The notes below the pieces were generated by a model. The model did no database searches. It had not been told where the DNA came from and was given only the letters and a program-made list of their open reading frames with translations. Below are positions 8,744 through 45,830 of a stretch of DNA of 64,000 nt, one piece after another (position 1 is the first letter of the stretch; every line of letters starts with the position of its first letter). Both the position numbers and the translations under genes were made by a program. Source of the stretch: an uncultured Latescibacterota bacterium (lineage in GTDB: Bacteria > Latescibacterota > UBA2968); assembly GCA_951812755.1 (NCBI GenBank), contig OX638329.1, forward strand, positions 2,341,339-2,405,338. The letters run 5' to 3'.

Positions 8744-10645
8744 ATGGCTTATATCGACAAGTTATTTGACCAGTATTTTTTAGAACACGCTTCTTATGTT
8801 GTGAAAGATCGCGCGATTCCCGACATTGACGATGGGTTCAAGCCCGTACAGCGCCGCATTTTACACGCGCTCAAAGAGCAGGACGATGGGAAATTTCACA
8901 AGGTAGCCAATGTTGTGGGGCAGACGATGAAATACCATCCCCACGGCGATCAGTCGATTTACGGCGCGCTGGTTAACCTGGCAAATAAAGATTTGTTCAT
9001 CGACAAACAGGGCAATTTTGGCAATATTTATACGGGTGACGAAGCCTCAGCTGCGCGCTATATCGAATGCCGGCTTACCCCGCTCGCAAAGGATGTGCTG
9101 TTTAATCCGGAAATTACCGAATACATTGAATCTTACGACGGGCGCAATAGCGAACCCGTTGTTTTTCCGGCGAAAATTCCCGTGCTTCTCGCGCAGGGTA
9201 CCGAGGGTATTGCGCCGGGTATGACCACGCGGGTTTTGTCCCATAATCTGATCGAATTGTTGCAGGCGCAAATTGCCTATCTCCAGGGGGAGGACTTTCA
9301 GGTCTTTCCCGATTTTGCGACGGGCGGTTTTGTCGATGTGACCGAATATGCCGACGGCAATGGCAAAGTGCTCGTGCGAGCCAAACTCGATACCAAAAAT
9401 CCCAAACGCATTATTGTGCGCGAGTTGCCTTTTGGCTCTACGTCTGAGTCTCTCATCGCCTCGATTGAAAGTGCAGCCCGGAAAAACAAGCTCAAAATCG
9501 CGGGTATCAGCGATTATACGGGTGAGGAAGTCGAAATTGAAATTCGCCTTGCCCGGGGCGTGCATACCAAAGATACGGTGGATGCGCTTTACGCTTTTAC
9601 CGATTGCGAACAATCTATCAGTGTCAATGCCCTGGTCATCAAGGACAATCGTCCCTATATCGCCACGGTGAGCGATATTCTCAAACACAATGCCGACCGA
9701 TTGGTCGATGTTCTCATGGCCGAGCTAAAAATTGAGCAGCGCCAGGTGCGCGATAAGTTGCACGCCAAAACTCTCGAACAGATTTTTATCGAGAATCGCG
9801 TTTACAAAGCAATTGAGGAAGTCGCCGATTCCAATGCGATTCACGAGGCGATACGCAAGGGGCTGGAGCCTTTTCTCAGTACAATCAGACGTCAGGTTAC
9901 AGCAGAAGACCTCGATACGCTTTTACAGATTCCCATTCGGCGCATTTCTCTGTACGATATCACGAAAGCGAAAAAGGAAATGCGCGATATGCGCGCGCGG
10001 CTCAGAGAGATCAAGACCAATCTCGAGAATATCATTGGCTTTACCATTGATTTTCTGGAATATCTGATTGATGAATACAAAGACAATTACCCCCGCCGCA
10101 CCGAGGTCACTTCTTTTGATCAGGTGGATGCACGCGAAGCGGCGCAGCGCAATCTCAAATTGCGCTATGATAAGAAAACGGGCTATCTGGGTTATGATGT
10201 CAATGGCAGCACGCTTATAGATGTGTCGCAATACGACCGCGTGCTCGTGATTCGCAAAAATGGCACGTATTCTCTGCACGAAGCACCCGACCGTCTTTTT
10301 GTGGATAAGGGTATGCTATTTTGCGATTTTGTCGATCCCGAACGGGTGTACACTGTGATTTACCGGGATCAGAAGACCAATTATCCCTGTATCAAACGCT
10401 GTAAGCTGGATACATTTATTCTGAACAGGGGATATGAACTCGTGCCGCCGGGATGCCGATTGCTCAAGCTCACAACGGATCGCGAGGTCGAGGTTCACGT
10501 ATCCTATAAACCCAAACCCCGTCTGCGTATTCTCAATGAAGAATTTGCGATCGAAGACTATGCGATTCGCGGCAAGACCGCCAAAGGCATGCGTTTGGCA
10601 GCGCGCGAGGTCAAAAGTGCTAAATTTGTAAAGCCTAAAGTTTGA
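8744..10645 (+). CDS. parC: Type IIA DNA topoisomerase, A subunit (short ParC/GyrA-like)
   Basis: DNA breakage-reunion subunit, 633 residues, shorter than usual GyrA or ParC (about 750-880). The N-terminal winged-helix region shows DGFKPVQRRIL, KYHPHGDQSIYGALV, and the catalytic tyrosine Y106 in SAARYIECRL that links to DNA. The coiled-coil tower follows (about 330-450). The C-terminal beta-pinwheel is reduced to about 150 residues with no GyrA box, so decatenation or relaxation is more likely than negative supercoiling (inference). Its natural partner is at 2424-4304. Its leader is largely the repeat at 8672-8729. Confidence 0.9.
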   Translation: MAYIDKLFDQYFLEHASYVVKDRAIPDIDDGFKPVQRRILHALKEQDDGKFHKVANVVGQTMKYHPHGDQSIYGALVNLANKDLFIDKQGNFGNIYTGDEASAARYIECRLTPLAKDVLFNPEITEYIESYDGRNSEPVVFPAKIPVLLAQGTEGIAPGMTTRVLSHNLIELLQAQIAYLQGEDFQVFPDFATGGFVDVTEYADGNGKVLVRAKLDTKNPKRIIVRELPFGSTSESLIASIESAARKNKLKIAGISDYTGEEVEIEIRLARGVHTKDTVDALYAFTDCEQSISVNALVIKDNRPYIATVSDILKHNADRLVDVLMAELKIEQRQVRDKLHAKTLEQIFIENRVYKAIEEVADSNAIHEAIRKGLEPFLSTIRRQVTAEDLDTLLQIPIRRISLYDITKAKKEMRDMRARLREIKTNLENIIGFTIDFLEYLIDEYKDNYPRRTEVTSFDQVDAREAAQRNLKLRYDKKTGYLGYDVNGSTLIDVSQYDRVLVIRKNGTYSLHEAPDRLFVDKGMLFCDFVDPERVYTVIYRDQKTNYPCIKRCKLDTFILNRGYELVPPGCRLLKLTTDREVEVHVSYKPKPRLRILNEEFAIEDYAIRGKTAKGMRLAAREVKSAKFVKPKV

Positions 10646-43447: not shown

Positions 43448-43502
43448 CGGCATTCCCGCATATTATCCACTATAATGGATCGTTATTAGAGAGAGGATGA
43501 AA

Positions 43503-44825
43503 ATGGATGCAAAAACAAAAAAATTGCAGGTGGATCAGGCTGTGAAATCGCAATCGCGGCGGGCGTTTAATCTGTCGCGGAGTATTCACGGCTGGGCTGA
43601 GCGGCCGTTTCGGGAATACGAGTCGTCAAAAGCGTTGGCGGCGTATCTGGAGGAGAACGGATTTCAAATTGAATTTCCGTTCAAGAATATCCCAACGGCT
43701 TTTCGCGCTACATGGGGCACGGGCAACCCTACTATTGGCATGTTGGGGGAGTACGACGCCTTGCCCAATTGCGGTGCGGAGGAGGGCACCTGGGGCCACG
43801 GCTGAGGCCATAATCTTTTGGGCGTTGCCCCGGCCGCAGGTGCGGTTGCTGCAAAAACAGTATTGGAAAATTTGAAATCGCCCGGTCAGATCATTTATTA
43901 TGGCTGTCCGGCTGAAGAAACTCTGGCGGGCAAGGTGTATATGGCCCGCGATGGCGCGTTTCGAGATTTGGATGCGGTGCTGGCATGGCATCCGGGATCG
44001 AGTACGGGTGTTAGCAATTATGGCGGTTCGTCGCTGGATTCGCTGGTCTATGAGTTTTTTGGCAAGACGTCTCACGGCGCGAGTGCCCACAATGGGCGCA
44101 GTGCATTGGATGGGGTGATGTTGATGGATGTTGCGGCGAATTATTTGCGCGAACACGTTCCCGAAAATGTGCGTATTCACTGTGTGATTCGAGACGGTGG
44201 GGACGCGCCCAATGTGGTTCCTGCCTATGCGAAGGTGTGGTATTATGTGCGAGGAAAGAATCGCGCACAGGTCAACGAAATACGCAAGCGATTGACCAAA
44301 TGCGCCAAAGGTGCGGCAATGGCCACGGAAACGACTATGAAATGGCATCGGATTACGGCTGTGTACCCGCGCTTGCCAAATGATGTGATGTGCAAAACCG
44401 TGCGTCAAAATCTCAAATTATTCGGTCCGCCGCGCGCGTCTAAAAAAGATAAGGAACGCGTAAAGGAACTGGGATACAAAGGTGAATTTGACGGAAAGGT
44501 CAAAAAGGGGAAGGGTTCACAGGGGCGCGGGTCTTCGGATGAAGACAATGTGTCGTGGCTGGCACCGATGGGTCGGTTTCAGATGGTGTGTTATACAAAG
44601 GGCACGCCGGGCCATCACCGCGATATGACCGCGCAGGCGATAATGCCTTATGCCGAGCGCGCGGTTTTGCAAACGGCCAAGGTGTTTGCAGGATCGGCTG
44701 TTGATTTGGTTTTGGACAAAAAGGTGTTGCAAGCAGCGCGTGCGGAATTTAAGAAGGGAACGAAGGGGTTTGAGTACGATCCGCTGATTAAAAAAAGTCA
44801 GAAGGTCCCCGTGGATCCTCCATAG
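43503..44825 (+). CDS. abgB: M20 (AbgB-like) amidohydrolase with in-frame TGA, probable selenoprotein
   Basis: The family hydrolyses N-acyl or aminobenzoyl-glutamate-type amides with two metal ions. The frame is interrupted once, by TGA at 43803-43805, and then continues in the same frame for 340 codons without damage. Around the TGA the protein reads GTWGHG-[TGA]-GHNLLGVAP; relatives such as AbgB have Cys there (GHGCGHNLLG), and in M20D enzymes that Cys is a metal ligand. So TGA probably encodes selenocysteine 101. A hairpin like the bacterial SECIS follows (43825-43854). Other family blocks are intact: GEYDALP, YGCPAEE, WHPGSS, GKTSHGASAHNGRSA, TPGHHRD. I chose ATG 43503, six bases after GAGAGG. 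A recent nonsense mutation is the main alternative. Confidence 0.7.
43825..43854 (+). promoter_or_regulatory. Candidate SECIS hairpin after the in-frame TGA
   Basis: The stem TTGC / GCAA, a 2x2 internal loop, and a 7-bp upper stem CGGCCGC / GCGGTTG (two G-U pairs) carry a 4-base apical loop AGGT. The apical loop begins 32 bases after the TGA. The GCAGGT at its tip also occurs in the E. coli fdhF SECIS, where it starts about 15 bases nearer the TGA. Bases were paired by eye; no folding energy was computed. Confidence 0.5.
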
Positions 44826-44837
44826 AAGGAGATGGTC

Positions 44838-45830
44838 GTGAAAGCACAAAGATTAATATGCACAGATATCCGGCGGATAGAATTAGATGACTTTGATTTG
44901 CCGCGTGTGCCAGATAATGGCATTTTGGTTCAAAACGATTATACCGCTGTGAGCGTTGGCACGGAAATTTACAATTATGCACACGGGGGTGAGCCGTCGC
45001 GTGCGAGGACATTTCCGCGACCAACGGGGTATTGTAATACGGGTGTGGTGCTCGAGGTGGGCAAAGATGTGAAGGGGATAGAGCCAGGTGATCGCGTTTC
45101 CGCGCAGGGCAATCACGCCAGTCATGCGGTTATGAGTGGGAATTTTTTTAGAGTGCCCGAAGGTGTTTCGCCCAAATCCGCAGCTTTTATGGTTATGTGT
45201 GCTATTGCCATGCACGGGCATCGGGTTGGACGGCCGGAATTGGGCGAGGCTGTGGCGATTACTGGTATGGGTATTGTGGGGCAATTGGCAGCGACCTTTG
45301 CGCGATTGGCTGGCGCGCTCCCGGTTATTGCGATTGATCTGGATGATTTTCGGTTGGGTAAAGCGAGAGACAGGGGCGCAGATGTTTGTGTCAATCCCAA
45401 TGCGGAAGGGGATGTCGCCGAGGAGGTGCGCCAGCATTGCGTGGGCGATGGTGTCGATCTGGTCATTGAAGCGACGGGTATTCCCGCGGTTTATCCCATG
45501 GCGTTGACTTTACCGCGGTTGGGTGGCCGTCTGGTCGCGCTGGGATCTCCTCGGGGTACTGTGGAGGTGAGTTTTTTGCCCGAGATTCACTTGCGCGAGA
45601 TTACTGTTCTGGGCGCGCATCAGCCCAAAACGCCGGATAATGACCATATTTATTATCCGTGGAGCAAGCGCAGAGATCGCGAGCTGATTTTGCGTTTGAT
45701 GGCTGCGGGCAAGCTGCCCATTGAAGATTTGATTACCCATGTCGCCAATCCCGCCGATTGCCAGGCCACCTACGACATGCTCGCCGATAATCCGAGAGAA
45801 GTATTGGGTGTGGTATTTGAGTGGGTGTAA
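44838..45830 (+). CDS. Zinc-type alcohol/polyol dehydrogenase (MDR family)
   Basis: A 330-residue medium-chain dehydrogenase. The GroES-like half (1-130) contains SVGTEIYNY, GVVLEVGKDVKGIEPGDRV; the Rossmann half has ITGMGIVGQLA and VIAIDLDD for NAD(P). The usual catalytic Cys and the structural zinc Cys cluster are missing, as in the threonine-dehydrogenase-like/BchC-type branch. I chose GTG 44838, six bases after AAGGAG, over ATG 44832, which touches that site. It follows the M20 gene by 12 bases, so they are probably co-transcribed. A broken copy of its 3' end lies at 46729-46812. Confidence 0.87.
   Translation: MKAQRLICTDIRRIELDDFDLPRVPDNGILVQNDYTAVSVGTEIYNYAHGGEPSRARTFPRPTGYCNTGVVLEVGKDVKGIEPGDRVSAQGNHASHAVMSGNFFRVPEGVSPKSAAFMVMCAIAMHGHRVGRPELGEAVAITGMGIVGQLAATFARLAGALPVIAIDLDDFRLGKARDRGADVCVNPNAEGDVAEEVRQHCVGDGVDLVIEATGIPAVYPMALTLPRLGGRLVALGSPRGTVEVSFLPEIHLREITVLGAHQPKTPDNDHIYYPWSKRRDRELILRLMAAGKLPIEDLITHVANPADCQATYDMLADNPREVLGVVFEWV

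Follow-up and report, generated by a model that had tools for sequence, protein, structure and literature searches.

The gene at positions 43497–44825 raises the question of whether its in-frame TGA ends the protein or is read as selenocysteine (Sec). The gene lies on the forward strand of the window, the 64,000-nucleotide stretch of DNA analyzed here, whose source genome is a single contig of 6.53 Mb (99.6% complete). Its frame holds 442 sense codons, the TGA at 43803–43805 (codon 103) included, and ends with TAG. This confirmed the initial annotation, which had reported a single in-frame TGA inside a GHG-x-GHNLLG frame; the context is GHG-[TGA]-GHNLLG. The same annotation had described TGA as a normal stop in this genome, which is the case at 610–612 and 10643–10645 and for 17 of the 39 non-overlapping long ORFs of the window. 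Frames interrupted once by TGA with both arms long were common in the window (49 in total), so our claim rests on comparison and not on the open frame. We propose that the gene very probably encodes an M20D selenoprotein, a metallo-amidohydrolase or dipeptidase in which a hairpin directs Sec103 to the cysteine (Cys) position of the di-metal site. Comparative evidence makes it almost certain that this member of the Latescibacterota and its relatives produce an M20 metal enzyme with Sec at the spot of the metal-gripping Cys.

The predicted protein belongs to the M20D family, with a TIGR01891 score of 195.5 bits against a cut-off of 153.75, and has the M20 fold of a catalytic domain plus a dimerization domain (M20_dimer, PF07687). 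The first Foldseek matches of its AlphaFold model (pLDDT 94.1, pTM 0.92) were PM20D2 (8zel, 7yh4) and HmrA (3ram), with TM values of 0.77–0.91. The earlier assignment to AbgB-like M20 proteins therefore stood as far as M20D is concerned, but PM20D2 and HmrA took the place of AbgB as the closest relatives. Residues C/U103, H105, E140, E141, H165, and H373 were invariant in 45 homologues (U written as C), and the spacing of this C/H/EE/H/H set fits the M20D metal site. By the pattern of the M20D family, we take residue 103 to be the metal-ligand Cys position of GHGCGHN, H105 (43809–43811) the second ligand at this site, E140-E141 of PAEE (43914–43919) the general base and a metal ligand, H165 of WHPG (43989–43991) a metal ligand, and H373 of GHH (44613–44615) the distal metal ligand, all encoded on the forward strand. 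That the Cys is an M20D metal ligand had already been stated in the initial annotation, and it is borne out by the plant enzymes BrILL2, in which the equivalent Cys coordinates metal, and PpILR1, in which C137S abolished hydrolysis (PMC8149794).

Homologues were collected by a search of 147 genomes and a search of genome contigs, the relatives being members of Candidatus Latescibacterota. All 23 closest orthologues (71–100% identity, the window's own gene included) carried TGA at exactly the same codon, and they come from many separate assemblies that cover three families and eight genera. The pattern GHG-TGA-GHN, searched for in 64 genomes of the Latescibacterota phylum and four genomes of one other phylum, occurred as one copy each in 23 of the 64. 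The reversed-pattern control gave zero matches, and the conservation of codon and pattern is beyond chance. No match was found in the four genomes of the other phylum, and none of the four matches in IMG/VR encoded an M20 protein. A nearby orthologue (L040/L060, genome G023) had TGC at the Sec column, and no other orthologue in the class carried Cys. The remoter homologues, from Planctomycetota, Kiritimatiellota, Chloroflexota, and others, all had TGC or TGT with one exception (L047), as expected from the earlier statement that relatives have Cys at this point. Phylogenetic analysis of the proteins placed the TGA genes in a single clade (support 87/95) within the Cys genes, suggesting that Sec probably replaced Cys a single time in this class and that one event was observed repeatedly.

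The exception L047 (genome G100) is a remote M20 homologue with Asp (GAC) at the Cys/Sec column, in the context GHGDSHQ. Other M20 subfamilies use Asp as a bridging ligand, and the column may therefore take Cys, Sec, or Asp.

A predicted bacterial SECIS element follows the TGA on the forward strand, with an apical hairpin, CGGCCGC-AGGU-GCGGUUG, at 43831–43848 and a lower mini-hairpin, GGGC-GUU-GCCC, beside it at 43820–43830. In the bSECISearch model, a SECIS hairpin carries an apical-loop G ~16–37 nt past the UGA. Across the aligned TGA orthologues the hairpin consensus was CGGCCGY-RGGU-GCGGUYG, with a conserved RGGU loop whose Gs are 34 and 35 nt past the UGA. Pairing was kept in 100% of cells over 17 distinct sequences, with variation only between GC and GU and between CG and UG; two-sided compensatory changes were not found among these sequences because the stem is nearly invariant. 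The small stem immediately 5′ of the SECIS hairpin (GGGC-NNN-GCCC) had invariant arms and a variable loop, and its candidate roles are an extended SECIS or coaxial stacking.

Codons +6 to +14 past the TGA read GGC GTN GCC CCG GCC GYR GGT GCG GTY in the TGA orthologues, with one ACA in L028 as the sole deviation. Among the 198 testable columns, which are degenerate and hold one amino acid throughout the 22 full-length TGA genes, seven had nucleotide-invariant codons, and six of these seven were in the hairpin region (hypergeometric p = 6e-10). The same-codon frequency at +6 to +14 was 0.93, compared to 0.46 gene-wide, in the TGA genes; in the Cys homologues the constraint was absent (0.36 in the same region, 0.54 gene-wide). 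Thermodynamic stability of the hairpin was rejected as evidence, being not above that of dinucleotide shuffles or, in most sequences, synonymous shuffles, which is a limit of the test in a GC-rich stretch. Codon invariance was used as evidence for this reason.

The initial annotation had proposed a check for selA, selB, selD, and the tRNA-Sec gene (selC), and the complete set was found in the same genome. Profile scores were 580 bits for selA, 385 bits for selB, and 365 bits for selD, and the tRNA-Sec, with anticodon UCA, scored 73 bits. The selA and selB genes adjoin each other away from selD, and the tRNA-Sec gene directly adjoins selD, distant from selA-selB. Only one of 47 genomes of the class lacked selD, namely G023, the home of the Cys orthologue, in which selA, selB, and tRNA-Sec also gave no hits over the cut-offs. 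G023 is 86% complete, and part of this absence could be an assembly gap; each lone absence is weak evidence, but the joint absence is strong. The TGA form tracks the presence of the Sec machinery.

The selD gene carries its own in-frame TGA in the context CGG-TGA-ASK, and SelD is itself a selenoprotein with a GGU-loop hairpin 3′ of the TGA (loci L015, at G000:C1:5934980-5935903 on the minus strand, and L001). SelD with Cys (TGT/TGC) was found despite the presence of selA and selB at L112, L113, L119, and L134 (genomes G036, G030, G039, and G026). These genomes belong to one genus of family f4, where SelD marks another switch between Sec and Cys in the class, in one direction or the other. Genome G012 apparently has two tRNA-Sec genes with equal scores (G012:C12:44763-44856 and G012:C31:164838-164931).

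A frame broken by a single in-frame stop could belong to a pseudogene, or the TGA could come from a sequencing or assembly error. However, the 23 orthologues, assembled independently of one another, share the identical TGA, which rules out a read error, and the wobble positions after the TGA are constrained. Downstream of the TGA, dN/dS was 0.06–0.09 in the nearer pairs, where dS was unsaturated (other pairs being saturated at synonymous sites), which indicates strong purifying selection. Decay in close relatives, which the initial annotation had named as a sign against its reading, was thus not seen: the aligned frame had no second stop in any TGA gene, and neither relaxed selection nor frameshifts were found. 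The pseudogene reading is refuted by the conservation of the TGA and the downstream frame, and pseudogene and error together retain a negligible probability. It is equally hard to credit that the locus makes two proteins, one of 102 aa at the N-terminus and one of 335 aa restarted at TTG 43818. The ORFs 43497–43805 and 43818–44825 exist mechanically, but the break would split the GHGxGHN active-site motif and come right ahead of the first long catalytic helix (H105–125) in a single fold predicted with confidence, and the Cys homologues are uninterrupted. Any stop would serve two separate proteins, yet TAA or TAG stood at codon 103 in none of the 23 genes. The terminal stop of every full-length TGA gene is TAA or TAG.

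The Cys carried by homologues at this column would also suit an ordinary Cys enzyme, the UGA being translated into Cys or a different standard amino acid through code reassignment or a suppressor tRNA. We consider this very improbable, since UGA serves as a stop in the long ORFs counted above, the full selA/selB/selD/tRNA-Sec set with its UCA anticodon is present, a SECIS-type hairpin follows the TGA, and the TGA form goes with the machinery. Some Cys misinsertion at UGA 103 during selenium starvation is possible. The homologue column, the machinery, the hairpin, selection, and the machinery-less Cys genome all agree with the initial proposal that the TGA probably encodes Sec. If Sec is inserted, its value might be redox, in a peroxide, thiol-exchange, or switch role, with the protein no longer mainly a hydrolase, and most known selenoproteins are indeed thought to be redox proteins (PMC13188914). 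Such a role seems unlikely here, however: the protein lacks a UxxC or CxxU arrangement that would supply a partner Cys or Sec, and H105, E140, E141, H165, and H373 are all invariant, as a working hydrolase requires. We think it likely that Sec is itself a direct ligand of the metal in a di-metal center that works by hydrolysis and not by redox chemistry.

Sequence comparison supports UGA recoding, the SECIS hairpin, the M20D family, and the metal-ligand position; selenium is presumably present at residue 103 and would there coordinate metal. In the proposed mechanism, the ribosome would arrive at UGA 103, SelA would make Sec-tRNA-Sec from selenophosphate supplied by SelD, and SelB with Sec-tRNA-Sec would bind the hairpin at 43831–43848 via its GGU loop, with Sec being inserted and translation running on to the TAG. 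The product would be a metallo-amidohydrolase or dipeptidase of the PM20D2/HmrA type, presumably located in the cytosol. Its Sec103, together with H105, E141, H165, and H373, would hold a di-metal center, and water activated there would attack an amide or peptide bond, with E140 as general base. Compared with thiolate, selenolate is the softer and more acidic ligand and is more readily restored after oxidation; it therefore could change which metal is preferred, give bound water a lower pKa, or shield the site. We infer that Sec tunes the metal site in one of these ways, as a softer, lower-pKa ligand, through another metal preference, or as a ligand that recovers from oxidation.

As a first guess by analogy, candidate substrates are PM20D2-like dipeptides and N-acyl amino acids. 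The neighboring genes gave no substrate clue. A zinc-type alcohol dehydrogenase gene (44832–45830) comes after the M20 gene, as in the nearer relatives (L048–L050, L052–L054, L059); it may share a pathway with the M20 enzyme.

The best reading is that of a new selenoprotein family in which Sec binds metal at a site for hydrolysis and not for redox chemistry. The initial annotation knew of no M20 selenoprotein, and an inventory published in 2026, which covers 119 families of prokaryotic selenoproteins, includes none from M20, amidohydrolase, or peptidase families (PMC13188914). No M20 selenoprotein is named in the main text of earlier surveys (PMC12013277, PMC9312934, PMC2398784, PMC5330540), a comparison that covered openly accessible journal articles, and the publications mentioning both selenoprotein and M20 were unrelated. 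If the reading is true, the use of Sec in bacteria extends beyond redox or redox-metal chemistry to the tuning of Lewis-acid hydrolysis. The Sec form in eight Latescibacterota genera and the Cys orthologue in a machinery-less genome would make a clean natural Sec/Cys pair, with which one can ask what benefit selenium brings outside redox chemistry. Such genes are currently likely annotated as two broken fragments.

Among known systems, the M20D enzymes, including human PM20D2, S. aureus HmrA, plant ILR1/ILL2, YxeP, and AbgB, share with the product of 43497–44825 the GHxCGHN motif, the invariant C/H/EE/H/H set, and TIGR01891, but these known members have a metal-ligand Cys where the present protein has a predicted Sec. 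In the same genome, the gene for SelD resembles the M20 gene in having an in-frame TGA and a GGU-loop hairpin (ATCCAGC-GGT-GCTGGAT) just downstream; its loop Gs are 21–22 nt past the UGA, compared to 34–35 nt in the M20 gene, and SelD, unlike the M20 product, is a known selenoprotein family and not a hydrolase. UshA is a metallo-phosphoesterase. Two UshA-like selenoprotein families (NF041198, NF049981) bear this hydrolase-derived name (PMC13188914). They differ from the present protein in having a CxU/CxxU motif, belonging to another name family, and showing no relation to M20. To our knowledge, the known catalytic Sec-metal ligands are all in redox enzymes. In the formate dehydrogenase FdhA and in [NiFeSe] hydrogenases, Sec is a direct ligand of the catalytic metal (Mo/W or Ni; PMC13188914). 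These are redox enzymes, whereas the M20D product is a predicted hydrolase whose fold is unrelated to theirs and whose di-metal site would activate water.
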